A stretch of DNA of 48,576 bases from positions 1 through 48,576 of IMG/VR virus record IMGVR_UViG_3300044904_000292. One strand, given 5' to 3'. Made by a program: the position numbers and the translations under genes. This document shows, in pieces, positions 1 to 38,496 of this stretch. Under the pieces are notes generated by a model. That model saw nothing but the letters and a program-made list of their open reading frames with translations, did no database searches and was not told the DNA's origin. Position 1 is the first letter of the stretch. Each line of letters begins with the position of its first letter. This DNA is from a virus.

Positions 1-3000
1 GGCACAGCGGTGGAGCACAAGACGGCCAGCGGGAGCTCGGCGAGCGTGACGTTCACGCGGTCGTTCAGCACGGCGCGGACGATCAACTGGTCGGCGACGG
101 CCTACGACACGCCGGGCTTGAGCAGTGCGTCGCTGACGGGCTCGTTCAATGTGACGGCGGCGGGGCCGCAGCAACTGACTCTGGACGTGTCTCCGGCTGG
201 CGCGCAGAGCGTTTCACTGGGTCAAACAGTTAGCTTTACAGCGGCTGTTTCTGTGGGTGGGCTGCCCGTGGGCGGTGTCACTGTCCCGGTGGTAGGCGGA
301 GTGAGAGGCGCCGCAAGCGCTAATCTCGTGACTGGTTCAGACGGCAAGGCTCCCTTCCAGACCTCCGCATCGAATCCAGGCTCTTATTCTGTGACGTTTG
401 GGCCCGCCGCGAAGGTGGGTTACACGAGCAGTACCTCGGTGAGCCGCGCGGTTGTGGTCCAGTCGTGCACGGTCACACCTGGCCCACTGACTGTGTCGGC
501 GGGTCCCGCAGGAGGCACGTACAACATTGCCGTCTCGGCCGCCCCAGGATGCTCCTGGACCGCCAGCACGGATAACGCTTGGGCCAGCGTCCCAGCCGGG
601 TCCGGCGGCAGTGGGAGCGGTTCCGTCAGCGTCTCGGTGTCCGCAAGCGCTGATGCCGCTCCGCGTTCTGCCACGATCACCATTGGTGGAATCGCGGTGG
701 CAGTAACCCAATCCTCGTGTTCGGTCGATGGACTCGCACCTCCGAACGCTAGTTTCAGCAGCGCCGCGGCGACAAGCAGTGTCGCCGTCACGGCCGCGAC
801 GGGATGCCCTTGGAATGCCGTCAGCAATGCCAGTTGGCTGACCGTTACGTCGGGGTCGACATCGACCGGTAGCGCACCCGTGGCATATTCGGTTGCCGCC
901 AACTCGGGAGGCACGCGCAGCGGCTTGATCAGTATCAAGAACCGGACATTTTCGGTTACCCAGGCAGGCACCTGCACATATACAGTGAACCCAGGATCGC
1001 TTACACCTGGCTATCAAGGTGCTACCGGTATCATAAGGCTCTCCACCGATCCAAGTTGTCCTTGGTCGGCTGCCAGCGATTCCACCTGGGCAACTTTCTC
1101 TCAGCCCAGCGGGACAGGGGGGGCGTCGATTGTATATAACGTCCAACAGAACGGTGGCGCCGCCTCGCGCAATGCCGTGCTTGACATTGCGGGACAATCC
1201 ATCCAAGTTCAGCAAGCGGGTAACCCGCTGGCAGGCTGCCGGCCATCGGTCACCAAGGTTCAGACGCAATACAGTGGCTATTTCCTCCCGTTTGGCGACG
1301 TTCCCAATCGTATCGACGTAACTGTCGCATGGTGTGGGACACCTGGTTCCGTGCGCTTTGACATTAATGGCGTTAGGGCCGCTACCGACAGTGCAGCAGG
1401 TTCCGTCACCTCTCACGTCTTCCACATGGCCAAGGACTTTCCAGCACAACTCGCACCGTCGGTAGTAACGATCATCCCGATCTCAACGGATGGCACGACG
1501 GGTTCGCCCTGGACGGGGCAAGTGCACGTTTTCGGCCTGCCGGATTGGTTGGAAGTGACGACACACCAGATGGGCTTTTTCCCTTCCATCGACATCACAA
1601 GTAACGATGTCACCTACGGTTGGGGGTTTCAATATCCTAATCCCGCGATTGAGGACGTCAACATAAGTGTTCCAGACGGGGTACCTTTCCTTGGCGGCGA
1701 GAAGTTCGGCCTGAAGAAGACCTTTTTGTCGATAGACGCCAGTGTCAGCAGCTCATCCGGCTCTGGCATTGGTAGCATTACGGGATCAACAGGCTTCACC
1801 GCATTCGGCAGCGACCTCGATGGCAGCGTCAGCGGGAGCGCCGGATTCACCTTAGGATCGCGATACGGGCTGCAACTTCAAAACGCCACGGTTGGCCTTG
1901 ACATCTCCGGCACTTTGGCGAAGGACGCCTCGGTCTTCGATGTCCTCGCTGGCGCCACGGGAATCGCGGCGCTCGCTGCTCTCCCGGATTCGTTCAAGAA
2001 GCATGCCATGCTCCACGGGGAGATCTCGCCGAGCCTTAATACTACCGTCGGATTCTCCCAGCAGAACGGCGAGTTAGCATTTGACGCGGCAACAGTGGAA
2101 ATCGGTCTTGGACTGAAAGGCAGCCTGGAGGTGAACGTCACTGACGGCCTGTCGGCACACGGTTCAGTTTATGGATCGGGCGCGACGACTGTCGGCTTTC
2201 CATCACCACACTTGCAGGGGGTGGGCTTGACCTTGGGCGCCGAAGTCGAGGCCGAGGCGGACGCAAGCTGGTGGGTCTTCGACGGGAAGTGCGACGCGAA
2301 GGCGTCCATCGCGTGGCTCTGCAAGTGGCAGGCCGGAGACGCTCAGCTCAGTTGCCAGAAATCGGATACGAGCGGCTCAAGCGCAGGTTGTGGCGTCACT
2401 GTGGCGTTGGCACGCGAAGAGAGCGTGAACCTTGAATTGCGACCGATCCAACGAAAGTATGATCGCTGGGGCCGATATGCTGCTCTTTCGCATCCTCAAT
2501 CAGCACAACGCAAGCTGCAAGCTTCAGTCGGAGCGCTCGACGTCAGCGGGCAACCCGGTACAGCAGATGGCGGCGGCGTGAACCAGCAGCTTGTCCAAAA
2601 TGTTTTCCCTGGCGCCAACCCGCAATTGATTCACGCAGGCGCTCTGGACCTACTGGTCTGGGCCTATCAGAACCCCACCCTGCCGTTGGAGCAGTCCACC
2701 GACATCGCTTGGTCCATTAACGATGGCACGGGTTGGACTCCCACTGCATTCGTCGCCCAGGACACCCGTCTGGAGATGTCGCCTGTTTTGGGTGTGGATC
2801 GCAACGGCAATGTCGTAGCCGCATGGAAGCGAGTAAAGGACCAGGCATGGGCGCAGACGGTCCAAACGCTGGCCGATCTTGAGACGCTCCATAAAGAGAT
2901 GGAGGTTGTTTACGCAGTCTTCAATGCGGGCTCGCGGACCTGGAGTCCGGTCACCCAGTTAACCGATGACACTGCTTTCGATACAGACCTGCACATCTCT

Positions 3001-5079
3001 ACCGATTCTGCGGGTGCTCTCATGCTGACGTGGATATCGAATCCTAGCGGCGAATTCACATCGACCAGCGCCAACCCGTCCGCGATCAAGTATGCATTCT
3101 GGACGGGGTCCTCCTTCGGCGTTTCGGCTGTCGCGATGGGCGGTCTAGTAGGGGTTTCGCGCCATGCGGCAGCTCTGAAGGGTTCGCAGGGCGTCATCGT
3201 TATCCAGCGCGATGCGCCCGCGGGAAGTACCGGCGGCGACGTGCTGGACTTGCTATCGTGGAACGGCGCCGCGTGGGCGTCTACCTTGAATTACGCAGCG
3301 AGCGGCGAGAATCGTCTGCCTTCGGCCGTTATTGACAATGCGGGTTCCACCCATCTCGTGTGGGTTCGCAACGGGCAACTGGTCCATTCCACGCTCCAAC
3401 AGTCAACGCCGGATGTTATTCGCGATAGTGCCGACTCCATGGCGTTTTACGATACCCATCTTCTGGTGAATCCGGCCGGCAACCTCACTCTTGTTTGGCA
3501 GCAGGCTAGTGACAACGGGGATGCGAACCTGTTCGCGCGGATCTTCGATCCCGTCACCTCGACGTGGAGTTCCGATGTTCGTCTGAACCTACTTCCGGGA
3601 AGGTCCCACGGGGTAAGCGGGTATTACGCAGCCGACGGCAGCCTCCATCTTTGTTATCTACAAACGCTCGTGGAACGGTCTTCACAGTTGGCTACCATTG
3701 GCGGCAGTTCTGTCCTGTTGGAGAATGTGCCAATGGACGGGCGCACGGATATTTACACGCTCAGCCACTTCCTTTCAGTTGATCTCGCGGTTGCGAACCC
3801 GGACATGCAGGTCACCCCGGCGATTCCGGCGCCCGGAGCACAGGTTGGTGTCCAACTCACCGTCCATAATGCGGGCAGCCTGCCGGTACCCTTCGTCCAT
3901 GCGAACGTTTACGCTGGAACCGTCAAGATTGCGACCCTCACAAGTGAGACGCCGCTTGCCGCGGGCGACAGGCGTGTTCTGTCAGGTCAGTTTACATACC
4001 CGGCCGCGGGTGGCGACATAGTCGTGATCGTCAACGAAGAGCATGCGTTCACCGAGCTGACCTATGACAACAATCGAGCGGTCGTCCAGCTTAGGAACTC
4101 GGTTCCGAGTGCGAAGATCGTCGCAAGCGCCGTTACTGGTGTGGCGCCATTTTCGGTTGACTTTGATGCCAGCGGAAGTGTTGATCCTTCCGGCTCCGCC
4201 CTGAGTTTCAATTGGGTGTTCTCGGATGGCGGTCCGATGGCTGCAGGCGCTAAGGTGTCGCACGTTTTCGGCGCCTCCGGAGCTTATCCGGTAGCGCTGA
4301 GTGCGAGGAATGCCCAAGGAAATTCCAGCACGGCCGCAGTTACCATTACCGTGGTGACCGCCGATGCGCCGACGTTCATAGCCGATGGCGTTGTAGATGC
4401 AGCGAGTTTTGCATCCGGCATATCGCCTGGCTCGATCGCGTCGTTGTTCGGTGTTCGGCTGAGCGCCGTATCGGGCGTATCCTCCGCCCAAGGCTTTCCG
4501 CTGCCAGTTCAATTGCAGGGTACGTCTGTTACAGTCAATGACATTCCGGCGCCGCTGCTGGCGGTCGCCAACGTGGCCGGTTCCGAGCAAATCAATTTTC
4601 AGGTACCCTTCGAGGTTGCAGCACCCGGCAATGCGCGAATTGTCGTTTCTTCTAGCGGTCGCAATAGTTGGCCGATAGACGTTCCTGTTTTGCCGGCCAA
4701 ACCGGCTGTTTTTGTCAGTGGCGGCATCGGACCGGCGATCATGCACGGTTTAACGGGAGAAATGGTAACTGTGACCAAACCTGCTCAGCCCGGGGAGGTC
4801 GTTGTGATCTACTGCACGGGTTTAGGTGCCGTTACGCCGCAGGTGTCGACTGGCTCCGCGGCATCGACAACGACCCTGTCGCAGGCGATCTTGCCATTCG
4901 CCGTGACTGTAGGAGGCAAGGACGCCGTTGTGGACTTTGGCGGCCTTGCGCCCACTTTCGCCGGGTTGTATCAGGTGAACCTGGAGATTCCATCGGGTCT
5001 GACCGGTACATCTGTGCCCCTCGTGATCCAGGTAAACGGCTCTACCTCGACGCCAGTGTCGGTACCTATTGGCCCGTAA
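1..5079 (+). CDS. Giant secreted multidomain protein, BACON x3 / CARDB / PKD / TIGR03437 (5' partial)
   Basis: The reading frame is open from the first base, so the N-terminus, including any signal peptide, lies outside the window; the GTG at base 10 is only an internal codon. About 1690 residues are visible. Roughly residues 150-400 hold three BACON-type repeats, each with a Cys-Pro/Ser-Trp core and an Asn/Ser-x-Trp motif and ending in a VTQ/VQQ strand. The middle part has Asp-box-like and TolB-like WSxD repeats. A CARDB-like adhesion domain follows near 1260-1360 and a PKD domain near 1370-1455 (DASGSxDP, FNWxFSDGG). The last 230 residues are the TIGR03437 domain of Solibacter-type extracellular proteins (GSIASLFG, INFQVP, YCTGLG). 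BACON and PKD modules usually bind carbohydrate or protein at the cell surface. No catalytic domain is recognised. A role as a large extracellular adhesin or binding protein is inferred. Confidence 0.85.
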   Translation, partial: GTAVEHKTASGSSASVTFTRSFSTARTINWSATAYDTPGLSSASLTGSFNVTAAGPQQLTLDVSPAGAQSVSLGQTVSFTAAVSVGGLPVGGVTVPVVGGVRGAASANLVTGSDGKAPFQTSASNPGSYSVTFGPAAKVGYTSSTSVSRAVVVQSCTVTPGPLTVSAGPAGGTYNIAVSAAPGCSWTASTDNAWASVPAGSGGSGSGSVSVSVSASADAAPRSATITIGGIAVAVTQSSCSVDGLAPPNASFSSAAATSSVAVTAATGCPWNAVSNASWLTVTSGSTSTGSAPVAYSVAANSGGTRSGLISIKNRTFSVTQAGTCTYTVNPGSLTPGYQGATGIIRLSTDPSCPWSAASDSTWATFSQPSGTGGASIVYNVQQNGGAASRNAVLDIAGQSIQVQQAGNPLAGCRPSVTKVQTQYSGYFLPFGDVPNRIDVTVAWCGTPGSVRFDINGVRAATDSAAGSVTSHVFHMAKDFPAQLAPSVVTIIPISTDGTTGSPWTGQVHVFGLPDWLEVTTHQMGFFPSIDITSNDVTYGWGFQYPNPAIEDVNISVPDGVPFLGGEKFGLKKTFLSIDASVSSSSGSGIGSITGSTGFTAFGSDLDGSVSGSAGFTLGSRYGLQLQNATVGLDISGTLAKDASVFDVLAGATGIAALAALPDSFKKHAMLHGEISPSLNTTVGFSQQNGELAFDAATVEIGLGLKGSLEVNVTDGLSAHGSVYGSGATTVGFPSPHLQGVGLTLGAEVEAEADASWWVFDGKCDAKASIAWLCKWQAGDAQLSCQKSDTSGSSAGCGVTVALAREESVNLELRPIQRKYDRWGRYAALSHPQSAQRKLQASVGALDVSGQPGTADGGGVNQQLVQNVFPGANPQLIHAGALDLLVWAYQNPTLPLEQSTDIAWSINDGTGWTPTAFVAQDTRLEMSPVLGVDRNGNVVAAWKRVKDQAWAQTVQTLADLETLHKEMEVVYAVFNAGSRTWSPVTQLTDDTAFDTDLHISTDSAGALMLTWISNPSGEFTSTSANPSAIKYAFWTGSSFGVSAVAMGGLVGVSRHAAALKGSQGVIVIQRDAPAGSTGGDVLDLLSWNGAAWASTLNYAASGENRLPSAVIDNAGSTHLVWVRNGQLVHSTLQQSTPDVIRDSADSMAFYDTHLLVNPAGNLTLVWQQASDNGDANLFARIFDPVTSTWSSDVRLNLLPGRSHGVSGYYAADGSLHLCYLQTLVERSSQLATIGGSSVLLENVPMDGRTDIYTLSHFLSVDLAVANPDMQVTPAIPAPGAQVGVQLTVHNAGSLPVPFVHANVYAGTVKIATLTSETPLAAGDRRVLSGQFTYPAAGGDIVVIVNEEHAFTELTYDNNRAVVQLRNSVPSAKIVASAVTGVAPFSVDFDASGSVDPSGSALSFNWVFSDGGPMAAGAKVSHVFGASGAYPVALSARNAQGNSSTAAVTITVVTADAPTFIADGVVDAASFASGISPGSIASLFGVRLSAVSGVSSAQGFPLPVQLQGTSVTVNDIPAPLLAVANVAGSEQINFQVPFEVAAPGNARIVVSSSGRNSWPIDVPVLPAKPAVFVSGGIGPAIMHGLTGEMVTVTKPAQPGEVVVIYCTGLGAVTPQVSTGSAASTTTLSQAILPFAVTVGGKDAVVDFGGLAPTFAGLYQVNLEIPSGLTGTSVPLVIQVNGSTSTPVSVPIGP

Positions 5080-8561: not shown

Positions 8562-10376
8562 ATGAACAGAGATACGAAGAGCATCCTCCTCTGTCTGATC
8601 GGAATTGTGGCTATGTTCATCCCCGCCCCATGCTGGGCGCAGAGCTACACGATCAGCACAATAGCTGGCGGCGGAAACACTTACTTTTACCCCGGCACCG
8701 GGGACGGGGGGCAGGCGACCAGCGCAGGCCTCGGGAACCCCTGCAACGATGTAGCCTTGGATGGTGGCGGAAACCTCTACATCGTGGCCGGCACATTGAT
8801 TCGCAAAGTCTCTCCAAGCGGCACTATCTCGACGGTCGCCGGCGGGGGCTCCAGCGTCGGGGAAGGCGTCCAGGCCACCGACGCCGAACTGTCGCCCGTT
8901 GCTATCGCCGTCGACACCTCGAGCAACCTCTACATTGCAGATTCTGTCTTCGGCTTGTTTCGCGTTCGAAAGGTGGACACCAAGGGCATCATCACCACCG
9001 TGGCTGGAGGCGCCCAGTGCTGCGCTTTGGGAGACGGAGGGCGAGCTACCGCAGCCTACCTGGCCATTCCGTATGGCTTGGCGGTGGACACCACCGGAAA
9101 TCTCTACATCGCCCAGGCAAACGGCGGCGGTAGCAACTTGGTGCGGAAGGTGTCGGCAAACGGCGTCATCAGTACGGTAGCCGGAGGCGGGACCGCTTCG
9201 GGCGACGGGGTACCCGCAATCAGTGCCAGCCTGGCCCGCCCGCTCGGCGTGGCCGTGGACACGGCTGGAAACCTCTTCATCACCGAAGCCAACGGGAATA
9301 GGGTCCGAAAGGTATCGAAAAGCGGCACCATCACGACCGTCGCCGCAATCGACAACCCCTGGCATGTCGCCGTGGACGCCTCCGGCAACCTCTATGTAAC
9401 ACAGCCTTCTGGCGCGCTGGTCCGGATGATCACGCCGGATGGCGCCGTCGCAACCATTGCAGGCACCGGCGCGCACGGGTTCTCGGGCGACGGCGGGCCA
9501 GGCATGAGTGCCATGCTCGACCTCCCTGCCGGAGTTGCCCTCGGCAGTCACGGCACCGTCTATGTTGCGGACGCCACTCTCGGCACCGCTCGCGTCCGGC
9601 TGCTGACCCCGTTTGCACCACCGACCGCGCCGCCCTCGATTGCGTCCGGCGGTATCGTCAGCGCGGGTGCGTTCGGAGCATTCACCTCCGTCGCCCCCGG
9701 CTCCTGGATCGAAATCTACGGCGCCAAGCTCGCGGCGGATTCGCGCCTATGGAGCGGGGCCGACTTCAACGGCGTGAACGCGCCCACTTTGCTGGACGGG
9801 ACCAGGGTGACCGTTGGCGGCCAGTCCGCCTTCGTCTCCTACGTCAGCCCGGCCCAGGTCAACGTCCAAGTGCCATCGAATGTCGGTACGGGCTCCCAAC
9901 CGATCATCGTCAGTACGGCTGCCGGCGCCAGCGCTCCGTACACGATCACGGTGAATCCGCAGCAGCCGGGATTGCTGGCGCCGAATTCGTTCATCATCGC
10001 CGGCAAGCAATACATCGCGGCGTTCTTCCAGGACGGCGCCTTCGCCCTCCCACCCGGCGCCATTGCCGGTGTAGCCTCGCGCCGCGCGCATCTCGGGGAC
10101 ATCCTCACGTTGTGGGGCATCGGCTTCGGACCGGTGACACCCAACACGCCGGCTGGCCAACTCGTGCCGCAATTGAACACCCTGGCCGCGCCGTTGCATA
10201 TCCTTTTCGGGCAGACCGAGGCGGCGCTGCAATACGACGGGCTTGAGCCAAACGCGGTCGGACTGTATCAGTTCAACGTGGTGGTACCGAACGTTGCGGC
10301 CAGCGACACCGTGCCCCTGACCTTCACGCTCGGGGGTGTGCCAGGGACGCAGACGCTGTACATCGCCGTTCAGTGA
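8562..10376 (+). CDS. Secreted NHL-repeat protein with TIGR03437 C-terminal domain
   Basis: The product has 604 residues. The N-terminus is a signal peptide (hydrophobic LLCLIGIVAMFIPAPCWA, cleavage likely after WAQ). Residues about 28-345 contain at least six NHL-type beta-propeller blades, seen as the repeating pattern GLAVDTxGNLYIA...RVRKV...GxITTVAG. NHL propellers are usually binding platforms and are frequent in secreted acidobacterial proteins. Residues about 355-604 form the TIGR03437 domain (SGGIVSAGAFG, VAPGSWIEIYG, AQVNVQVP, LTLWGIGFGPV), the same module that ends the protein at 1-5079. The gene is the last host-type gene before the phage region. Substrate or partner is unknown. 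Confidence 0.85.
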   Translation: MNRDTKSILLCLIGIVAMFIPAPCWAQSYTISTIAGGGNTYFYPGTGDGGQATSAGLGNPCNDVALDGGGNLYIVAGTLIRKVSPSGTISTVAGGGSSVGEGVQATDAELSPVAIAVDTSSNLYIADSVFGLFRVRKVDTKGIITTVAGGAQCCALGDGGRATAAYLAIPYGLAVDTTGNLYIAQANGGGSNLVRKVSANGVISTVAGGGTASGDGVPAISASLARPLGVAVDTAGNLFITEANGNRVRKVSKSGTITTVAAIDNPWHVAVDASGNLYVTQPSGALVRMITPDGAVATIAGTGAHGFSGDGGPGMSAMLDLPAGVALGSHGTVYVADATLGTARVRLLTPFAPPTAPPSIASGGIVSAGAFGAFTSVAPGSWIEIYGAKLAADSRLWSGADFNGVNAPTLLDGTRVTVGGQSAFVSYVSPAQVNVQVPSNVGTGSQPIIVSTAAGASAPYTITVNPQQPGLLAPNSFIIAGKQYIAAFFQDGAFALPPGAIAGVASRRAHLGDILTLWGIGFGPVTPNTPAGQLVPQLNTLAAPLHILFGQTEAALQYDGLEPNAVGLYQFNVVVPNVAASDTVPLTFTLGGVPGTQTLYIAVQ

Positions 10377-12724: not shown

Positions 12725-14673
12725 GCGTGCAACGCCTGGTGACGGGGCTGTCGCGCGGTTGGGCGCCGCCGCCCAAGCTGTCGGTCACGGGCTGGGCGGA
12801 TGAGTATCGCTTCCTGTCGAGCGAGTCGGGTGCGGATGCCGGCAAATGGCACACGCTGCCGTTCCAGCGGGAAATCTTCGATGCGTTCTCGAACCCCGCC
12901 GTGCACACCGTGGTGGTGATGAGCGCGACGCAGATGGTGAAGACGGTCCTCATCGAGAATGCGCTCGGCTATATCATCGACCGCGACCCCGGCCCAACGC
13001 TGCTGATCGTGCCGCGCGACTCCGACGGCGATAAGTTCAGCAAGATCCGGATGGCGCCCATGGTGCGCGATACGCCCTGCCTCCGTGAGAAGGTTTCGGA
13101 CGTGAAGACCGCGAGGACCACCAACACGCTCGATTACAAGGCGTTCCCCGGCGGCCACCTCACCATCGCCGCAGCGGGCTCGCCGGGCAACCTGGCGGCG
13201 CTGCCGATTCGGTTTCTGCTCTGCGACGAGATCGATAAGTACCCGGCGTCGTCGGGCACCGAGGGCGATCCCATCAGCCTGGCGTTCAAGCGCACGGCGA
13301 CCTTCTGGAATCGGAAAGTCGTGCTCTGCTGCTCGCCGACCATCGACGGCGAGAGCCGGATCGCGAAGGCGTTCGGGACCTCCGACCAGCGGGAGTACAC
13401 GGTGCCATGCCACGCCTGCGGCTCGTTCCAGGTTCTCAAGTGGGCCCAGGTGAAGTGGGACAACGGCCTGGCCACGAAGGAGGCGCGGGCGGCGTCGGCG
13501 TACTACGAGTGCGAGCACTGCCAGGCGCATTGGAACGACGTTGAGCGGTGGCGCGCGGTCGAGATCGGCCGCTGGTTGGCGGGGGCGCCGTTCGCCGGCG
13601 TGGCGGGGTTTCACATCAACGAGTTGGCGTCGCCGTGGAAAAAGCTGTGCGAGATCGTTCTGGACTTCCTGACGAAGAAGGACGACCCGGAGCAGCTCAA
13701 GACGTTCGTCAACACGACCCTGGCGGAAACGTGGAAGCAGGGCGAGACGCCCGATTGGGAGAAGGTTTACGCGCGCCGCGAGGATTACCCGTTGGGTACC
13801 GTGCCGATGCGGGCTTTGATGCTGGTGGCGGCCGTTGATGTGCAGCACAACCGGCTCGAGTTCGAGGCGGTGGCGTATGCGCCCAACCGGGAATCGTGGT
13901 CGGTGTGGTACGAGGTGATCCCCGGCGATCCGGCGAACATCACGGCGGCGGGTCCGTGGGCGCAACTCGACGTGCTGCTGTCGCGCGACTGGCCGCATGA
14001 GTCCGGCGGCGCCATGCCGATCCTGGCGATGGCGATTGATACCGGGTTCCAGAGGCGCGCGGATGGACAGCCGGCGCCGGTGTACGAGTTCGCGCGCCGC
14101 CACCCGCAGCCGGTCTATGGTCCGGCAGGCACGCGCGTGTGTTCGTTCCGTACCGTGATTCCAGTGAAGGGCAACGATGACGCGTTCAAGCTGATCTCCG
14201 GCGTCAGCGGGACGGACGCCGCGCAAAAGCGGCAGGGCGTCCGGATCTGGACGGTTGGGACGCACTGGGCGAAGCAGGAATTCTACGATCTGCTACGGTT
14301 GACCGCGCTCGAGGGCGGGGCGTTCCCGCCCGGATACTGCCACTTCCCGGCGGCTTACGAGAAGGTCTACTTCCAGGGCCTCTGTTCGGAGCGGCGCGTG
14401 GTGCGGGCGTCGGGCAAGGTCGAGTGGGAACAGGATTCCGTGGTGCGTAACGAGCCGCTGGACCTCCGCGGCGTGTACGCGCGTGCGGCCGCGGAACTGT
14501 GCGACCTCACCCGATTGACGAAAGAGCATTGGGCGTTTCTTGAATCGGTGGTGACCCGCAGGCCTGCGCCGCTGCCGCAAGCGGAGATCGCGGTGGCGGC
14601 GCAGCAACCCCGTCCGGTGGGCGATCCGCGATACATCGGGCGCTTCGATGTGACGAACTGGCTGGGCCGATGA
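12721..14673 (+). CDS. Terminase large subunit, GpA family
   Basis: The product has 650 residues, the usual length for lambda gpA-like terminases. It is the DNA-packaging motor and nuclease that cuts concatemers and pumps DNA through the portal. The ATPase domain shows a P-loop-like segment (SATQMVKT, residues 68-75), a second nucleotide-binding strand (TLLIVPRD) and Walker B with catalytic acid (FLLCDEIDKYP, D169-E170). A GpA-type four-cysteine knuckle lies near residues 228-266 (CHACGS ... CEHCQAHW). The C-terminal nuclease has the acidic strands VAAVDVQHN and LAMAIDTGF. The gene overlaps both the small subunit and the downstream methyltransferase by ATGA junctions, so it sits in a tightly coupled operon. 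Confidence 0.93.
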   Translation: MSVQRLVTGLSRGWAPPPKLSVTGWADEYRFLSSESGADAGKWHTLPFQREIFDAFSNPAVHTVVVMSATQMVKTVLIENALGYIIDRDPGPTLLIVPRDSDGDKFSKIRMAPMVRDTPCLREKVSDVKTARTTNTLDYKAFPGGHLTIAAAGSPGNLAALPIRFLLCDEIDKYPASSGTEGDPISLAFKRTATFWNRKVVLCCSPTIDGESRIAKAFGTSDQREYTVPCHACGSFQVLKWAQVKWDNGLATKEARAASAYYECEHCQAHWNDVERWRAVEIGRWLAGAPFAGVAGFHINELASPWKKLCEIVLDFLTKKDDPEQLKTFVNTTLAETWKQGETPDWEKVYARREDYPLGTVPMRALMLVAAVDVQHNRLEFEAVAYAPNRESWSVWYEVIPGDPANITAAGPWAQLDVLLSRDWPHESGGAMPILAMAIDTGFQRRADGQPAPVYEFARRHPQPVYGPAGTRVCSFRTVIPVKGNDDAFKLISGVSGTDAAQKRQGVRIWTVGTHWAKQEFYDLLRLTALEGGAFPPGYCHFPAAYEKVYFQGLCSERRVVRASGKVEWEQDSVVRNEPLDLRGVYARAAAELCDLTRLTKEHWAFLESVVTRRPAPLPQAEIAVAAQQPRPVGDPRYIGRFDVTNWLGR

Positions 14674-16268
14674 GCACAACCATAATCACGCCCGCCATGG
14701 TGCGGCAGATCGAAATCTGGCCGACCGGGAAGCTGCGCGCCTACGCCCGCAATGCCCGTACGCACTCGCCCGAGCAGGTAGCGCAGATCGCGGCGAGCAT
14801 CCGGGAGTTCGGGTTCGTGAATCCGATCCTGGTAGACTCCGGCGCGGGAGTGATCGCCGGCCACGGGCGCTTGCTGGCGGCGCGGCAGTTGGGCCTCGAG
14901 GAGGTTCCGGTGGTCGTGCTGGACCACCTGAGCGACACCCAACGGCGCGCGTACATCATCGCCGACAACAAGCTGGCGATGAATGCTGGGTGGAACCTTG
15001 AACTGCTGGCGCAGGAAGTGCGCGAGCTGGAGCGGGAAGCATTCGACCTTGACCTTATCGGCTTTTCGGAATCCGAGATGGCGGAACTGCTGGCCATCGG
15101 CGACACGCCGGAGGCCGTGGACGCAGTCGAGGAGGCGATTCCCGAGGCGCCGGCCCAGCCGGTCACCCAGCCTGGGGACGTATGGCTGATCGGTCCGCAC
15201 CGCCTGGTGTGCGGCGATTGCAGGGACCGGAATATTCTGGGTATATTATTCCCCGCCAATTCCCGCGCCAACGTGGTGATCACGTCGCCGCCCTACGCCG
15301 CGCAGCGTGAGTACGACTCCTCGAGCGGGTTCCGGCCGATCCCACCGGACCACTATGCCGACTGGTATCGAGACGTGGCGGCGAACATCGCGGCGGTCCT
15401 TGCGGACGATGGCTCCTACCTCCTGAACATCAAGCCGCATGCCGACGACGGCGAGAGAAGTCTGTACGTGATGGATCTGGTTATCGCTCACAAGCGCCAG
15501 TGGGGTTGGCGATTTGTGGACGAGCTCTGCTGGCGCAAGACCGACAACGGCGTGCCGGGCGGCTGGGGGAACAGATTCAAGAATGCTTTTGAGCCCGTGT
15601 TCCATTTCTGCCGCCAGCAGCAAATCAAATTCCGGCCGGAGGCGGTCGGGCACGAGTCGGAGGACTGCTTCGACTACTCGCCCAACAACCCCAAGTCGAC
15701 CTCCGGAAGCGGGTTGCTGGGCACCGGTCCGCGCGGCGCCGCGGCCGACGGCGGCCCAAATCAGGATGCCTGGCGCAGGAGCCACAACAACCTGAATGCC
15801 GCCACCAATCCGGAAGGCCGGCATACCGGCATCGCGCGCCCCAGTAACGTGGTCGAGGTGAAGTCGGAGTCTTCGCAGGGCACGCACTCCGCGCCGTTCC
15901 CCCGCGCGCTGGTTGAGTTCTTCCTGAAGGCGTACAGCGACCCTGGCGACGTGGTGTACGACCCGTTCATGGGGAGCGGAACCACGATGGCGGCGGCGGC
16001 CGCGTTGGGCAGGATTGGAAATGGTGCGGAAATTTCTCCGGCCTACTGCGATGTAATCGTCTGTCGAATCACGAATTTGATTGGAAACGAGCCAGTGCTC
16101 GAATCGACCGGCGAGACGTTTGCGGCGGTCGCCGCGGCGCGCGGCGTCCCGGTCGACCAGGCGTTGAACCCCAAGCAGCAGGACGGGCGTGCCATCAAGC
16201 ATCGCGGGCCGAACCCGCACTACGGGCCGCGCCGGAAGCGCGACGCCGAGGTTCGTGTCGCAGGGTAG
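14670..16268 (+). CDS. ParB-like nuclease domain fused to DNA methyltransferase (copy 1)
   Basis: The product has 532 residues. Residues about 15-140 are a ParB/sulfiredoxin-type domain (NARTHSPEQVAQIAASI, VIAGHGRLLAAR). The rest is an amino-methyltransferase in the beta-class order: the catalytic motif TSPPY at 205-209 comes before the AdoMet motif DPFMGSG at 431-437. TSPPY is common in N4-cytosine and some N6-adenine enzymes, so the target base is uncertain. Phages use such fusions to methylate their own DNA against host restriction. The long insert at about 290-400 is probably the target-recognition region. The start overlaps the terminase stop (ATGA). No partner restriction enzyme is present. 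It is a paralogue of the gene at 16591. Confidence 0.9.
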   Translation: MSTTIITPAMVRQIEIWPTGKLRAYARNARTHSPEQVAQIAASIREFGFVNPILVDSGAGVIAGHGRLLAARQLGLEEVPVVVLDHLSDTQRRAYIIADNKLAMNAGWNLELLAQEVRELEREAFDLDLIGFSESEMAELLAIGDTPEAVDAVEEAIPEAPAQPVTQPGDVWLIGPHRLVCGDCRDRNILGILFPANSRANVVITSPPYAAQREYDSSSGFRPIPPDHYADWYRDVAANIAAVLADDGSYLLNIKPHADDGERSLYVMDLVIAHKRQWGWRFVDELCWRKTDNGVPGGWGNRFKNAFEPVFHFCRQQQIKFRPEAVGHESEDCFDYSPNNPKSTSGSGLLGTGPRGAAADGGPNQDAWRRSHNNLNAATNPEGRHTGIARPSNVVEVKSESSQGTHSAPFPRALVEFFLKAYSDPGDVVYDPFMGSGTTMAAAAALGRIGNGAEISPAYCDVIVCRITNLIGNEPVLESTGETFAAVAAARGVPVDQALNPKQQDGRAIKHRGPNPHYGPRRKRDAEVRVAG

Positions 16269-16590: not shown

Positions 16591-17901
16591 ATGGGGATCG
16601 CGCAAGGCAAAGGCACGATATTCGAGAAGGCTGCGTCTGCCGTGCGTGCCTTGCGCGATCTCATCGTCCAACGATGGCCAATCGACAGGCTCATCCCGTA
16701 CGCCAGGAACTCCCGGACTCACTCCGAAGAGCAGGTGGCGCAGGTGGCCGCCAGCATCGTCGAGTTCGGGTGGACCAACCCCATTCTGGCCGGCCCGGAC
16801 GGCGTGGTGATTGCCGGCCACGCCCGGTTGCTGGCCGCCCGCAAGTTGGGCATGACCGAGGTCCCTGTAATCGTTCTCGCGGATTTGACCGAGTCGGAAC
16901 GCCGGGCGTTCGTGCTGGCCGACAACAAGCTGGCGCTCAACGCCGGGTGGGACGAGGAGATGCTGCGGGTGGAACTGGAGTCGCTCAAGGAAGACGACTT
17001 CAACCTCGATGTCGTGGGTTTTTCCGCAGAGGAGTTAGAAGTGATCCTGGCGGGTCCGGAGGAGACGCGCGAAGGACTGACCGACGAGGATGCGGTTCCG
17101 GATGCGCAGGAGAAGGTCATCACGGTGGCCGGCGACGTGTGGTTGCTGGGCCGACACCGCCTGCTCTGCGGCGACGCCACGGTACTCGGCGACGTGGAGA
17201 AAGTGATGGCTGGCGGGCTGGCCGACATGGTCTTTTGCGATCCACCGTACGGCGTGAACTACGGCGCAACGATGAAGGACAAGCTGCGCGGCACGCACAG
17301 GCCAATCGCCAACGATAACCTGGGCGCCGACTTTGAGCAGTTTCTTAAGGAGGCCTGCGTGAACATGCTGGCGGTCACCAAGGGCGCGCTCTATGTCTGC
17401 ATGTCGTCTTCGACGCTACACACGCTGCACCGCGCGTTCACTGAGGCCGGCGGCCACTGGTCCACGTTCGTCATCTGGGCGAAGAACACGTTCACGATGG
17501 GCCGTTCCGATTACCAGCGGCAGTACGAGCCGATGCTGTACGGGTGGAAGGAAGGCACGGATCATTTCTGGTGCGGCGCCCGCGACCAGGGCGACGTGTG
17601 GTTTGTGAAGAAGCCGGTCAAAAACGATCTGCATCCTACGATGAAGCCGGTGGAGCTGGTGGAGCGTGCGATTCGCAACAGCAGCAAGTCGCGCGACACC
17701 ATCCTGGACCCGTTCGCCGGGAGCGGCACGACGATCATCGCTTGTGAGAAGGCGGGGCGGCAGGCGCGCGTGATTGAGATCGATCCGCGGTACTGCGACG
17801 TGATCTGCCGCCGGTTTATCCAGTTCTCAGGCGAGCAAGTACTCCTCGAAGCTACCGGAGAAACCTTCGATCTAATTTCATCGCGGAGGGCGGCAGCATG
17901 A
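16591..17901 (+). CDS. ParB-like nuclease domain fused to DNA methyltransferase (copy 2)
   Basis: The product has 436 residues. The ParB-like domain spans about 28-155 (YARNSRTHSEEQVAQVAASI, VIAGHARLLAARKLG) and aligns closely with that of the gene at 14670. The methyltransferase half carries DPPYG at 217-221 and DPFAGSG at 373-379, again the beta-class order; DPPY favours N6-adenine. LHPTMKPVELVER, typical of the family, precedes the AdoMet loop. The target-recognition insert differs from copy 1, so it probably methylates another site. The shared ends (ATGETF) and ParB halves point to an old duplication. The start is three bases after the stop of the coiled-coil gene. Confidence 0.9.
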   Translation: MGIAQGKGTIFEKAASAVRALRDLIVQRWPIDRLIPYARNSRTHSEEQVAQVAASIVEFGWTNPILAGPDGVVIAGHARLLAARKLGMTEVPVIVLADLTESERRAFVLADNKLALNAGWDEEMLRVELESLKEDDFNLDVVGFSAEELEVILAGPEETREGLTDEDAVPDAQEKVITVAGDVWLLGRHRLLCGDATVLGDVEKVMAGGLADMVFCDPPYGVNYGATMKDKLRGTHRPIANDNLGADFEQFLKEACVNMLAVTKGALYVCMSSSTLHTLHRAFTEAGGHWSTFVIWAKNTFTMGRSDYQRQYEPMLYGWKEGTDHFWCGARDQGDVWFVKKPVKNDLHPTMKPVELVERAIRNSSKSRDTILDPFAGSGTTIIACEKAGRQARVIEIDPRYCDVICRRFIQFSGEQVLLEATGETFDLISSRRAAA

Positions 17902-33228: not shown

Positions 33229-33645
33229 ATGCCTGGCAACCTCCAATCCGCCTCGCCCAGTGGCGTGATGCCGGCCTCGTTGTCGACCGCGTTCACTGAG
33301 TCGCGCGAGTACGCGCAACTCCAGAACCAGTACCGCGATGAGACGATCCAGCGGTCGCAACTCGCCCAGACGTCGCGCCGGACCTTCATGCTCAGTAAAC
33401 GATTGAGCGCGACCGATTTAAGCACGCTGTCCGGCTTCTGGGCTGCCAGGAAAGGCGGCCTGATGCCGTTTGCATTCTACAACCCGTTCGATGTGGCGTC
33501 AGGCCAGCAGATCGGAAGCAACCACGATCCGACCGGCAATAACACGCAGGGGCGCGTGACGGTGGTGTTCCGCGGCCCATGGGCGCAGGCCACGGACATC
33601 GCGCGGACGAACGTTCAGGGCCTGGAATTGGTGGAGGTGGCCTGA
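33229..33645 (+). CDS. Minor tail protein, gpM / DUF2460-like
   Basis: The product has 138 residues and a good aaggggagg site. The core pattern RRTFMLSKRLSATDLSTLSGFW ... LMPFAFYNPF ... GRVTVVFRG ... GLELVEV resembles gpM-type minor tail proteins, which link the tape measure to the tip. The first 140 residues of the next tail gene (34387) have the same layout, so the two are probably paralogous domains. Location after the tape measure agrees with lambda order (H, M, L). The fold assignment is moderate. Confidence 0.6.
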   Translation: MPGNLQSASPSGVMPASLSTAFTESREYAQLQNQYRDETIQRSQLAQTSRRTFMLSKRLSATDLSTLSGFWAARKGGLMPFAFYNPFDVASGQQIGSNHDPTGNNTQGRVTVVFRGPWAQATDIARTNVQGLELVEVA

Positions 33646-33724
33646 CGTTGTGGAGGGTCAAGGGTAGCGGAACCACCGCTCGGGGTGCTTACCGCGTGCG
33701 CTTCTCCTCAAAGTATGGGCCGCG

Positions 33725-34144
33725 CTACCTGGTCTTCAACGACCGATCAATCGAGGCTAGCCTCTCGTGAATACTGAACAAGAGGATGACCTGCTCGCAT
33801 ACAAGCCTCCACAGGAGGTTGCCCACAGTCGCCAGAAGTAGCGCCGATAGGACCTTCACTAGCTTGGCCGTATCCTCGGTTTCCTTGGTGCCAGCGAAAA
33901 CCATGTAAATCGCCGCCACCATTATGCCCACCACACCAATCACGTACACAACCTTGATGAGCGTTGGACTGATCATCTTCTGAAATGAAAAATACCCATC
34001 CGCTAATCCGTCCATTACTTCGCCTCGCCCTCGAATCGGGGCTGTTTTGTGGACTTCGTCCACCTTGCCGGTGGAAAAATCATAGCCACAATCACACCAC
34101 AGGGCGCTTGCAGGATTTTCGAGTTTGCACTTGGGGCACTGCAC
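33725..34144 (-). CDS. Zinc-ribbon DUF4282-like membrane protein (cargo gene)
   Basis: The GTG at 34144 has an ideal AAAGGAG site eight bases ahead and gives 139 residues; the ATG at 34258 would add 38 unlikely residues. The N-terminus is a zinc ribbon (CPKC ... CDCG, C3, C6, C17, C19). The rest follows the DUF4282 pattern: GYFSFQKMISPTLIKVVYVI, a first membrane helix near 62-84, a second near 95-115, and RLVCEQVILLFSIHERL. DUF4282 proteins are small membrane proteins of unknown function, seen in prophages and hosts. It runs against the tail operon between two tail genes, so a lysogeny-expressed moron such as an entry-exclusion protein is possible but unproven. Confidence 0.75.
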   Translation of the reverse strand: MQCPKCKLENPASALWCDCGYDFSTGKVDEVHKTAPIRGRGEVMDGLADGYFSFQKMISPTLIKVVYVIGVVGIMVAAIYMVFAGTKETEDTAKLVKVLSALLLATVGNLLWRLVCEQVILLFSIHERLASIDRSLKTR

Positions 34145-34386
34145 TGAATAAGCTCCTTTGTGTTGTCGTCTCCGAGACTTTCCAGAATATTCAACGCTGC
34201 GAACAAGGTGGCCCCGCAGCTCTTGCGGCGTGCGGCTTCTCGGATTCATCGCGTTCAATCGGTATCAATCGTTTTCATTTCGTTGAATTTCGTAGATATG
34301 AGTGTACCGCTGGGCCAACTCGGATGAAAGGCCCTGGAATACCCCCTCCAGGCCTCACTCTCATCAGACAAAATTCATAAGGCGCC

Positions 34387-37300
34387 ATGCCCGACACCAT
34401 CGGCCGCATCACCGTCCCCACGGTGATCAACTCCGGCCAGACATTCCCGCTCACCACGCAGTACCCGTTCGGCTTCTCCGTCGAGCGCCCGGTGATCGTG
34501 CATCGCTTCGGCTCGCTCGACGCCAAGCAGGAGCAGCGGTATTACGCCGGCATCGGCCCGCGGAAGTTCCAGTTCAAGCGGCCGAACCTGAACTGGAGCG
34601 AATCCCGCCAGCTCAAGGCGTTCTGGGAGTCCATGCAGGGGCCATGGCAGGCGTTCACCTACAACGTGCCCAATCCCGATGGCACGACCAGCGCCGTGCT
34701 GGTCACCTTCGAGCAGGCTCCCATTTCGTTCGAGTACCTGCGCAACGCCGCCCAAGTGGGACTGAATCTCGTCGAGGTCGTCGATCCGGCGGCGGCGCCC
34801 AGCTACACGGTCGCCTCCACTTGCCTGCGGTTTCCCTCGAGCGGACTGGCCACCGCGCTCCTCTCGGAAGTCCAGCAGGTCATTCCGCTCGTCCACATCC
34901 GCATGCGCGAATCCGCGGTCGCGGACATCCATCTCTCCGACCGCCGTGTGACCGTGGGCGACCAACTCTATTTGCCGCGCCTCGTCGGCATCGGCGAGGC
35001 CGGCTCCGACGTCCTGATCTCCCAGGACATCAGAGGCGCCTCCGACAACGTGCGCTTCGCTTTCGGTAACGGCGACCGCGTCATGACGCAGCTCGCCAAC
35101 GACACCGACCTGAAGTATGCCGAGATTGACCTCTGCCTGTTCCATGTGAATTCCGGCATCCTGCTCCAGCTCTGGAAGGGCGTCATCCAAAACTACGTCA
35201 GCGATGGAACGCCCACTTTCCCGGTGACCTGCTCCGACGGCTTCTTCCAGATCATGAACCAGTACCCCGAGCGGCAGCTCAGCCGCCAGTGCTGGAAGAC
35301 CTTCGACGATGGCGTGAATTGTCCGTATGCAGCGCACGGGAGTGGCGGCGATCCCGCGAGTTGCGACTATTACCTCGAGTCGGCCAATGGCTGCCAGGCG
35401 CACGGCATGGCCCGCTACTTCGGCGGGCACCAGGCCGACCCCCAGGGCGTGATCATCAAAGACGACTCCACCGGGTTCCTGGGTTTCGGCCGCAACACGG
35501 TCACCGCCACGTCAATCATTTCGGACACGATCTGGGGCCTGGCGCTGCCGGAGATCTGGTGCAACTCGGGCGGCAACCCGTTGTTTGCCTTCCTGGCCAC
35601 AGCGTTGATGGTGAACTACCGGGACGAGTCCGGATACGCCGACTCATTGGGCATCCTTGGTGCCGGACCTCTGGGCGGGTTCACGCCGTCGATGGTCGTG
35701 CAGAATGCGGACGGCTATCGGTATCTGGTGGCCCCCATGGTGGACGGCTACCCCTGGCAGGGTCTCAAAATCGACGGCAACCTGAACGTGACGAAATACC
35801 AGCCGGGGATGGGGCTGCGATACATCGCGGGCAACGACCCCGCGAACCCGAGCAGCGACTATTTCTCGCTCGGTCAGGGATCGCCTCAGGTGTGGCAGCC
35901 GAACGTCTATGCGGCGGGCACGGCGGCGTGCGAGATCCGCATCGTCAAATCGACCACGATCCAGCCCAGCACCCCCGACCAGCACCAAATGAAAGTCCCT
36001 ATCGATTTCGGGATGTGGGGCTGGACCTGGGACCAGGCCGGCAACCGGACGGCGGTCAGGGGATTGATCAATCCGTTCTGGATTGCCGTCAACATGCTGC
36101 TGCGCGCCATGGGGATCTATGGCGACCCCTCCACCGGATCGGACCCCGGCGGCGGGCCGGGACCGTCGTCGGCCGCGCAGCTCGCCACGTTTGTGCTGCC
36201 GTCGCTGGTAGTGGGCGACGGAAGCGGCGCGGCCGAGATCGCCGCAGACCAGGTTGCAGCCATCCTCGGCACCGGTACCGAGACGCAGTTCCAGTTCCAG
36301 GGAATTCTGAGCAGCCAGAAGCCGTTCCGCGACTGGCTTACCGAGGTGCTCAACTGCTGCCTGGGGTTCTACACCTGGGAATTCGGCCAACTGAAGCTCG
36401 GCTGCCGGATCAACGCCAGCGCGGTAGACGCCTACACCGTCGGCAATCTGCTGTTCCAGAGCCTGCGATTGGCTCCGATTCAGTCGGCCTTTGAGCACCT
36501 GGTGCTTTCCTTCGCCGACGTTGCCTATCAATACCAGGCGAACACCGCAGAGTATTGCGACAAAGGCCACGCGGCCTACTACGGCCGCGCCGGATCGCCG
36601 CTTACCAGCCAGATGCACTCCGTCGGCTGCTCCACGCTCAGCCAGGCGCTCCGGATCGCGGCCACGCGGACGCGCGAGGAAATCGGCGGCGTGAATCCCA
36701 CCGAGTGGCGCAATGCGAGGACAACCACCTGGCAGACCACGCTGCTGGGCCTGGCCAACGAAGTCGGCCAGGTGGTCTCGATCACGCATCCCGACGTGCC
36801 CACCGGTACCGGCAAGTTCCGGATTCAGCGGTGGAGCCTGAAGAAGGACTGGTCGGTTGAGATCCAGGGGCAGACGGTCACGGATTCGATGTACGACCTG
36901 GACGTCGGGCCGAAGCCCATCGACGTGGTGCCCGCGCCCCTGCCGCCTCTGTTTTACCCGATCCCGCTCAGCCCGGCGTGGGCGCCCTACCAGGTGCAGG
37001 CGGCCGCCTGGGACGCGCTGTTCCCGAATGAGTGGACATTCGATTTGAACCAGACCTACACCACGCTGGCCGATGGCAGCGCGCTCGCCAACCTCATTGT
37101 CACCGGCAAACTGCCGGTGAACCAGTTCAGCGCCACCGGCGCCGGCGCGCCTGGGATCGGATCTATCTCGCAGTCCGCGGCGGGCGGCTCGTTGCCGGCC
37201 AACGTGACGCTGCGCGTAGCCATCTGCGCCATCGATTCGAATGGGCTTCCGTCGGCTCCGTCGAATATCGCCATCATCGGGACCCCGGCTTCTGGAACGG

Positions 37301-38496
37301 GCACGTTCACCCTGGAAGACATCACCTGGCCGGCGGTCGCGGGCTTGGTTTCGTACGTCCTGTTCGTGGCCACCCAGGACGATTTGATCTGCGCGCAGAC
37401 CTCGGGCGCGTTGACGGCGGGTCCGAACAATACCTACACGCCGGACTCGATCACTTTCGGCGGTCCGCTGGCGCGCTCGACGTGGGCGCTGCCCTCACCC
37501 TACATCTCAAAGATACGGATCAAGGCCAAGCGGGCGATTCACATGGGGGTGGCGGGCCTGGACGTGGACAGCGTGGCTGCTCCGAATCAGGTCGTCTGCG
37601 GGTGGCTGGTCGACGCTAATCCGCCGGCCAACGCTTTCAATCCGGTCGGCAGACTCCTGTCTGTCGTTGGGCGCCCGGAGAGCAGCACGCCGTTCGTCAG
37701 TGTGCAGATCACGGGTTATGACCATGCGACCGGAACACTGACCGTCTCTCCGCAGGCAGTGGTTGCGGGCCATCCGGAACTGTCCATCCAGGTGGGCGAC
37801 GTGGTTGTCATTCGCAACTCAGCCGATGCGCCGAACACTGGCAACCCGACCCGGATCACCGACTCGGGTTACCAGAACGTGACCTGCAATTACAGCGGCC
37901 TGACGCCGGGCGTCGAGGTGGGGAACATCCTGCGGGTGATCATGGGCACCGGGCGCGGCCAACTCCGCAAGATCACCGGGAACACGCCCACCCAGTTGTC
38001 CTGGGATCTGCCGTTGGTTCTCGATGAAACCTCGGTGTGTATCGTCGAGGACGCAGCGTGGTCTTACAGCGTCGATTCCAGCGACGTCGACAACGCTAAC
38101 TATCAACTGGCGACCTCTCTCACGCTGCCCAGCACCAACTTCCTGGACTTCTCGATGGTTGTGGGCGGCTTCACGGTAAATTCGGCCGGTGTGGAATCGA
38201 GTGATGCCTCGGCTCCCATCCGCGAGATCTTCATCTACGGCGACGGCTACGCGCAGGCGTTCATTGCGGCCACGACGTATGCCATGAAGGCCAACGATCA
38301 CGTTCTGACCTTCACCGGTGTCAATCAAACGCTGAACCTGTTGCCCAGCAATGCGATCCGCCGTTTCCCGAGGTACATCATTCACGCCGGCACGGGCGCG
38401 CTCTCTGTGAACCCGGCGCCTGGCGACACTGTCGAGGGACTCGCCTCCGGGACCTTGAACCCGGGTGATCGCATGGTGCTGATGCCCAGCTCGTAA
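34387..38496 (+). CDS. Fused tail-tip protein: gpM-like + gpL-like + gpJ/hub-like
   Basis: The product has 1369 residues. Residues 1-140 resemble the small gpM/DUF2460-like protein at 33229 (NLNWSESRQLKAFWESM, GPWQAFTYN, LNLVEVVD). Residues about 155-350 resemble gpL/DUF2163: a beta-barrel part (DIHLSDRRVTVGDQLYLP) and four cysteines, C302, C312, C326 and C336, followed by YFGG. Lambda gpL uses four cysteines in this region to hold an iron-sulfur cluster, so one is predicted here. Residues about 640-870 look like the hub/J-type domain (FYTWEFGQLKLGCRIN ... RIQRWSLKKDWSVEIQ), followed by an Ig/FN3-like part near 920-1020 and C-terminal beta domains. The fusion would combine the tip parts that are separate in lambda. 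Confidence 0.78.
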   Translation: MPDTIGRITVPTVINSGQTFPLTTQYPFGFSVERPVIVHRFGSLDAKQEQRYYAGIGPRKFQFKRPNLNWSESRQLKAFWESMQGPWQAFTYNVPNPDGTTSAVLVTFEQAPISFEYLRNAAQVGLNLVEVVDPAAAPSYTVASTCLRFPSSGLATALLSEVQQVIPLVHIRMRESAVADIHLSDRRVTVGDQLYLPRLVGIGEAGSDVLISQDIRGASDNVRFAFGNGDRVMTQLANDTDLKYAEIDLCLFHVNSGILLQLWKGVIQNYVSDGTPTFPVTCSDGFFQIMNQYPERQLSRQCWKTFDDGVNCPYAAHGSGGDPASCDYYLESANGCQAHGMARYFGGHQADPQGVIIKDDSTGFLGFGRNTVTATSIISDTIWGLALPEIWCNSGGNPLFAFLATALMVNYRDESGYADSLGILGAGPLGGFTPSMVVQNADGYRYLVAPMVDGYPWQGLKIDGNLNVTKYQPGMGLRYIAGNDPANPSSDYFSLGQGSPQVWQPNVYAAGTAACEIRIVKSTTIQPSTPDQHQMKVPIDFGMWGWTWDQAGNRTAVRGLINPFWIAVNMLLRAMGIYGDPSTGSDPGGGPGPSSAAQLATFVLPSLVVGDGSGAAEIAADQVAAILGTGTETQFQFQGILSSQKPFRDWLTEVLNCCLGFYTWEFGQLKLGCRINASAVDAYTVGNLLFQSLRLAPIQSAFEHLVLSFADVAYQYQANTAEYCDKGHAAYYGRAGSPLTSQMHSVGCSTLSQALRIAATRTREEIGGVNPTEWRNARTTTWQTTLLGLANEVGQVVSITHPDVPTGTGKFRIQRWSLKKDWSVEIQGQTVTDSMYDLDVGPKPIDVVPAPLPPLFYPIPLSPAWAPYQVQAAAWDALFPNEWTFDLNQTYTTLADGSALANLIVTGKLPVNQFSATGAGAPGIGSISQSAAGGSLPANVTLRVAICAIDSNGLPSAPSNIAIIGTPASGTGTFTLEDITWPAVAGLVSYVLFVATQDDLICAQTSGALTAGPNNTYTPDSITFGGPLARSTWALPSPYISKIRIKAKRAIHMGVAGLDVDSVAAPNQVVCGWLVDANPPANAFNPVGRLLSVVGRPESSTPFVSVQITGYDHATGTLTVSPQAVVAGHPELSIQVGDVVVIRNSADAPNTGNPTRITDSGYQNVTCNYSGLTPGVEVGNILRVIMGTGRGQLRKITGNTPTQLSWDLPLVLDETSVCIVEDAAWSYSVDSSDVDNANYQLATSLTLPSTNFLDFSMVVGGFTVNSAGVESSDASAPIREIFIYGDGYAQAFIAATTYAMKANDHVLTFTGVNQTLNLLPSNAIRRFPRYIIHAGTGALSVNPAPGDTVEGLASGTLNPGDRMVLMPSS

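Follow-up and report, generated by a model that had tools for sequence, protein, structure and literature searches.

A siphophage baseplate hub with an N-terminal gpM-type domain and a predicted iron-sulfur module in phages of Bryobacterales

How is the six-fold tube of a phage tail joined to its three-fold tip? The problem is general to siphophages, gene transfer agents and related machines, and it is raised by an open reading frame (ORF) at 34387–38496 of IMG/VR virus record IMGVR_UViG_3300044904_000292, the whole of which (48,576 bases) was analysed and is referred to here as the window. An earlier note on this DNA had read the frame as a fusion of parts resembling the lambda tail proteins gpM, gpL and gpJ, accompanied by a free gpM-like protein encoded at 33229. 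Profile comparisons, Foldseek searches and a match to Phage-tail_3 (PF13550) that exceeds the curated cut-off in the gpJ-like part (Table 1) bear out this three-part reading. The new part is the fusion of a gpM-type domain to a predicted iron-sulfur (Fe-S) hub, a fusion that is general in a large phage group whose hosts are soil bacteria of the Bryobacterales (Acidobacteriota).

The frame is uninterrupted, starts with ATG on the plus strand and encodes 1369 residues plus a stop, as the note had described. It is kept over its full length in 63 aligned long homologues, with a median identity of ~85–86% over the first 830 residues and 41% at the C-terminus; this variable C-terminal part is likely the receptor-binding region. 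The fused protein is encoded at 74 viral loci and five loci in bacterial metagenome-assembled genomes (MAGs), mostly of Acidobacteriota, and tblastn against 50,697 phage records produced no match. Deep relatives, which are 35–45% identical, all show the same order of gpM-type domain, hub domain I (HDI), cysteine module (where present), core and Phage-tail_3, and the gpM-type domain is fused to the hub in every full-length relative.

The N-terminal part does mirror the free protein, and profile-profile comparison assigned both copies to the gpM type. The fused domain matched the family of the free protein with an E-value of 7.1e-12 (deep relatives added), the lambda gpM family with 1.1e-5 over 110 columns, nearly the whole length, and the RcGTA-type Dit with 3.5e-4, the reversed-profile controls being 0.15 for gpM and 0.28 for Dit. 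When 12,942 ORFs were searched by hmmsearch with a profile of residues 1–145, only the free family and two lambda-type gpM proteins scored below E = 1. Residues 1–140 of the window protein alone stay under the Pfam cut-offs; AlphaFold predicts a strand-helix-strand arrangement with pLDDT of 80–90 across most of residues 61–130. In the free protein family, PF09343 was found in 12 of 19 relatives and PF05939 in two of 19, and the free protein itself matches DUF2460, the RcGTA-type Dit family with reference genes from R4C and RDJL1, at 7.5e-6, which is below the curated cut-off. The free and fused copies form separate, long-diverged clades, so the duplication was not recent. A scan of viral contigs with lambda gpM recovered near-identical copies only. 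Derivation of the fused domain from gene 2 of a tandem ring-gene pair, as found in elements described below, is attractive from gene order but disfavoured by the profiles, in which gene 1 (7e-10) comes nearer to the domain than gene 2 (2e-6).

The gpL-like region also stands, as the fold of HDI matches lambda gpL, and HDI together with the cysteine module is linked to gpL via an intermediate family. The AlphaFold model is fairly confident for residues 1–285, except for 36–56 and 212–218, and low beyond. Foldseek matched the fold of residues 141–285 to T5 pb3, DT57C, JBD30, the RcGTA hub, lambda gpL, Chi, T1 and the R4C hub, in all cases with a probability of 1.00 and E-values of 1e-4 to 1e-2, and PF09931, the baseplate hub attachment domain, was detected in 10 of 24 relatives (best 1e-3). 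Residues 141–830 are co-linear with T5 pb3 (E = 5e-10, 855 columns) in a Foldseek match to a poor AlphaFold model (pLDDT 51), from which only the Foldseek order was used. By profile-profile comparison, the window family aligns to a Bryobacterales family of single-chain hubs at 3.4e-13, and this bridge family aligns to gpL at 2.9e-12, HDI and the cysteine positions being aligned in both cases. Judged from these profiles, residues 141–360 are homologous to gpL, transitively through the bridge family. Compared directly by hhalign, the region had no significant match to lambda gpL or the RcGTA-type hub and reached significance only via deeper relatives, and searches of Protein Data Bank sequences with single sequences and shallow profiles returned chance matches only. 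CPW...CGYS...C-x6-C...RFGG is seen in members of the bridge family. A deep member of the window family has CWKNFKDGINCTYSGAETVCDKSWARCTALANTDQFGG, close to CTWTYRGDECGYSG...C-x6-C...FGG of lambda. The C-x-W / C-x-Y / FGG motif, which was defined after the gpL family and the hubs had both been seen, occurs in 12 of 13 gpL-family members, 46 of 58 hubs and about one in 3,800 background ORFs.

Four cysteines at residues 302, 312, 326 and 336, predicted by the note to be Fe-S ligands, do precede a YFGG motif (residues 344–347). They are invariant in 63 of 63 homologues and 58 of 58 unique sequences and are the only never-varying cysteines of the first 360 residues, where the others vary freely; among 104 deep relatives, each of the four positions is a cysteine in 98–99. 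In five of the 104 (L464–L468), all four cysteines are gone with the whole module, and the segment between HDI and core has shrunk to a short linker. These are natural Fe-S-minus hubs. Homologues lacking the four cysteines, which the note had expected to speak against its reading, thus exist but do not count against it, as the entire module is absent from them; their all-or-none loss points to a modular ligand set. The C-x9-C-x13-C-x9-C spacing is true of the window protein but is not fixed among its relatives, in which the second and third cysteines are from ~5 to 70 residues apart. The same place between the cysteines holds an inserted oligosaccharide-binding domain in the RcGTA and R4C hubs (PMC7296036, PMC10276861). 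The cysteine pattern is the one expected of a four-ligand metal site, and from homology to gpL, RcGTA and R4C we infer that the module would bind a 4Fe-4S cluster. The Fe-S cluster of gpL is established (Tam 2013, as cited in PMC10721106), and Fe-S density has been seen in the RcGTA and R4C hubs (PMC7296036, PMC10276861).

The phages keep one free and one fused gpM-like copy, in agreement with the note, throughout the testable loci: the free gene lies upstream of the hub in 88 of 88 loci with enough upstream DNA, on ~80 distinct contigs of viral and host origin, and almost all of the deep genome loci retain it too. In ~20 contigs the two genes are directly adjacent; elsewhere they are separated by up to 4.7 kb of unrelated genes. 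Pairwise distances of the free protein and the fused domain correlate with r = 0.95 and a partial correlation of 0.64 (0.38–0.73 on subsampling), as compared with partial correlations of 0.15 between the fused domain and HDI of its own chain and 0.05 between the free protein and the tape-measure C-terminus encoded next door. The signal is 0.41 when cargo separates the genes and 0.56 without divergent loci. We read this co-variation of sequences as probable co-evolution of physical neighbours.

Between the free gene and the hub (33646–34386; L002–L080), the tail module contains a hypervariable spot for cargo, which is 0.6–4.7 kb long in ~54 of 80 contigs. By sequence, 71 ORFs taken from 42 of the spots form 70 clusters; 12 of 20 scanned proteins, a partly hand-picked set, have matches at E <= 1e-5 to PADLOC defence models such as TIR, LmuB, NsnA, GajB-like and PD-T4-6. 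The cargo of the window itself (33728–34249, minus strand) encodes a zinc-ribbon-like N-terminus (CPKC...CDCG) and a DUF4282 domain (8.5e-17).

We propose, with middling confidence, an architecture in which a siphophage baseplate hub with gpL and gpJ in one polypeptide would have gained an N-terminal tail-ring domain of the gpM/Dit family and kept the four-cysteine gpL module. Three hub chains would make the tip. A single distal ring of six members would be built alternately from their fused N-terminal domains and from three free proteins, so that the hub would be covalently tethered to every second ring position. Such a mixed ring would close the six-fold tail tube, hold the end of the tape measure and hand over to the three-fold hub, and the cysteine module would bind a 4Fe-4S cluster that stabilises the outer hub, as in gpL and RcGTA gp13. 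The heteromeric ring, by which the six-to-three change would be built into the gene layout, is put forward more tentatively. Its membership and 3+3 stoichiometry are inferred: on a three-fold hub, three fused domains would leave three places of a six-membered ring for free proteins. There are precedents in the RcGTA Dit, whose odd and even subunits touch the hub and megatron differently (PMC7296036), and in JBD30, where distal tail proteins of two domains each settle the 6-to-3 mismatch as a trimer (PMC11445458).

It is somewhat less likely, but possible, that there are instead two rings, the free protein making up the six-fold distal ring by itself and the fused domain a three-fold collar of its own, or a decoration, between ring and hub. 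The long divergence of the two clades fits this arrangement, and related Bryobacterales elements have two separate tandem DUF2460-type genes (~125 and 250–290 residues) before a single-chain hub, so the older state may be one with two distinct ring-type proteins. This gene order weighs against the proposed architecture, and so do three further points: the co-variation, on a shared phylogeny, is indirect and may owe something to a recombination boundary that separates the N-terminal domain from HDI; the low-confidence part of the AlphaFold model past residue 285 includes the cysteine module; and the cysteine region alone, compared directly with gpL, gave a non-significant 0.022 against 0.047 for the reversed control. 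The strong co-variation of free and fused copies nevertheless fits direct neighbours somewhat better than two rings, though stacked rings would also touch. A real gpM resemblance might also have been retained in a domain that forms no ring and, as an evolved Dit-like decoration, only binds carbohydrate or the host surface. Sugar binding is common for Dit insertion domains (PMC7296036, PMC10276861), but the fused domain, at ~140 residues, aligns to gpM along almost all of its length without an inserted domain and, unlike the variable C-terminus, is among the conserved regions of the chain (86% median identity), which makes this role quite improbable.

As to the module, the four cysteines could hold zinc or form disulfides, given that four cysteines alone do not tell the identity of a metal and that the equivalent upper baseplate protein of JBD30 has been described only as having a putative metal site (PMC11445458). 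We consider this unlikely in view of the homology, via the intermediate family, to an established Fe-S protein, the presence of the same module at the same place in RcGTA and R4C hubs with Fe-S density, and the joint loss of all four cysteines, which argues for one shared ligand. The fusion itself could in principle be an artefact of assembly or frame, and frames are broken in a few loci (L066, L070, L071/L072, L080); however, it is intact in more than 60 viral contigs and in contiguous Bryobacterales chromosomes, and these homologues refute an artefact as nearly as can be. At L071/L072, the hub frame is in pieces and is accompanied by two free ring-type genes, the result of a rearrangement or an assembly error.

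A profile of residues 1–370 matched 49 of 237 genomes of a single bacterial family, that of a Solibacteraceae MAG, as compared with two of 396 in a phylum-wide draw; a few of the 49 were matched by the N-terminal domain only, and several contained multiple copies. Three genomes or bins (G002, G453, G459) have 6–7 hub copies each, suggesting several prophages per host or mixed bins. The elements with tandem ring genes (L494–L502) are conserved in Bryobacterales, mostly one per genome, with weak matches in roughly 60 of 257 genomes. They encode a P22-type coat protein, a tail-tube protein, both products of the tandem DUF2460 genes and, in one chain, a hub of ~1310 residues with a gpL-type four-cysteine motif, and are candidates for a domesticated prophage, a gene transfer agent or a tailocin.

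Table 1. Coordinates of the tail-tip protein, its parts and associated tail genes in the window
Feature	Position	Strand	Basis
Tape measure protein, 1698 aa	27707..32803	+	PHROG tape-measure families; directly upstream of free ring gene
Free gpM/Dit-like protein, 138 aa, partner copy	33229..33645	+	PF09343 7.5e-6, under curated cut-off
Whole fused tail-tip/hub protein, 1369 aa	34387..38496	+	ATG start, full-length homologues
Residues 1–140, gpM/Dit (DUF2460-type) domain fused to hub	34387..34806	+	Profile comparison
Residues 141–290, hub domain I (gpL N-terminal / RcGTA attachment domain)	34807..35256	+	PF09931, Foldseek
Residues 291–360, four-cysteine gpL C-terminal-type module (predicted 4Fe-4S site)	35257..35466	+	Conservation, transitive profile link
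Cys302 codon	35290..35292	+	
Cys312 codon	35320..35322	+	
Cys326 codon	35362..35364	+	
Cys336 codon	35392..35394	+	
Residues 361–643, hub core, HDII/HDIII-type	35467..36315	+	Co-linear T5 pb3 alignment; low-confidence model
Residues 644–816, Phage-tail_3 (PF13550), gpJ/megatron core domain	36316..36834	+	27.9 bits, curated cut-off 23
Residues 831–1369, C-terminal part, variable past ~1100, likely receptor-binding region	36877..38496	+	Identity drop

The window encodes a gpA-type terminase, a lambda-family portal, a capsid protein and a cement protein. On the evidence of these head genes and of the tape measure directly upstream of the free ring gene, the virus is a siphophage whose head module is lambda-like. 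No NlpC/P60 match was found in the window record. Two adjoining proteins (14670–16268 and 16591–17901) each combine a ParB-like N-terminal domain with an N6/N4 DNA methylase domain. Upstream of the terminase gene lie frames for large proteins (10–5079 and 8562–10376) that contain BACON/PKD/CARDB and NHL propeller repeats, which is odd for the head-proximal region of a phage.

Our literature search, which was limited in scope so that absence proves little, found no earlier report of a gpM/Dit domain fused to a hub; nor did 80 RcGTA-type loci contain a Dit-hub fusion. The long gpL of a Klebsiella phage is extended at its N-terminus, but the extension does not resemble gpM. If the proposed architecture is true, this phage family would represent a natural covalent solution of six-to-three joining that is easily tested by protein ratios. 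Close relatives that have the four-cysteine module and relatives that are cleanly without it also form a natural series in which the role of the gpL iron-sulfur cluster, so far unexplained, could be addressed.

Single-chain hubs that unite gpL and gpJ are already known from T5 pb3 and LSH1 (PMC13243795). Like the window hub, gp25 of Alishewanella phage LSH1 has gpL- and gpJ-like domains in one chain, but it lacks cysteines in the gpL C* region, and the distal tail protein is separate (PMC13243795). T5 pb3 likewise has gpL- and gpJ-type hub domains in one chain; unlike the window hub, it carries, by published accounts, an HDII insertion at the place of the gpL C-terminal domain of lambda. It is also without an N-terminal gpM/Dit domain, the T5 Dit being separate, so the window hub, with a gpM-type domain in the hub chain, departs from a type that has a separate distal tail protein only. 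In JBD30, too, the distal ring is where six-fold tail symmetry gives way to the three-fold hub, but this is done by a single protein that has two beta-sandwich domains and forms a trimer, without a hub fusion (PMC11445458). In the RcGTA/R4C type (g12-g13-g14-g15), Dit (DUF2460), a hub with the attachment fold and a megatron with Phage-tail_3 correspond to the parts of the window protein, and the four cysteines of RcGTA-type hubs are invariant in 61 of 61, with the first pair also C-x9-C; these proteins are, however, encoded by separate genes in each of the 80 loci, with a peptidase gene present and a large oligosaccharide-binding domain between the cysteine pairs. The window hub departs from this layout in that hub and megatron are not separate genes with a peptidase gene between them. 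Lambda has the same three domain types, gpM, gpL and gpJ, in the same order after the tape measure, as separate genes with K and I between L and J, whereas the phage of the window has them in one chain and a free gpM copy besides.

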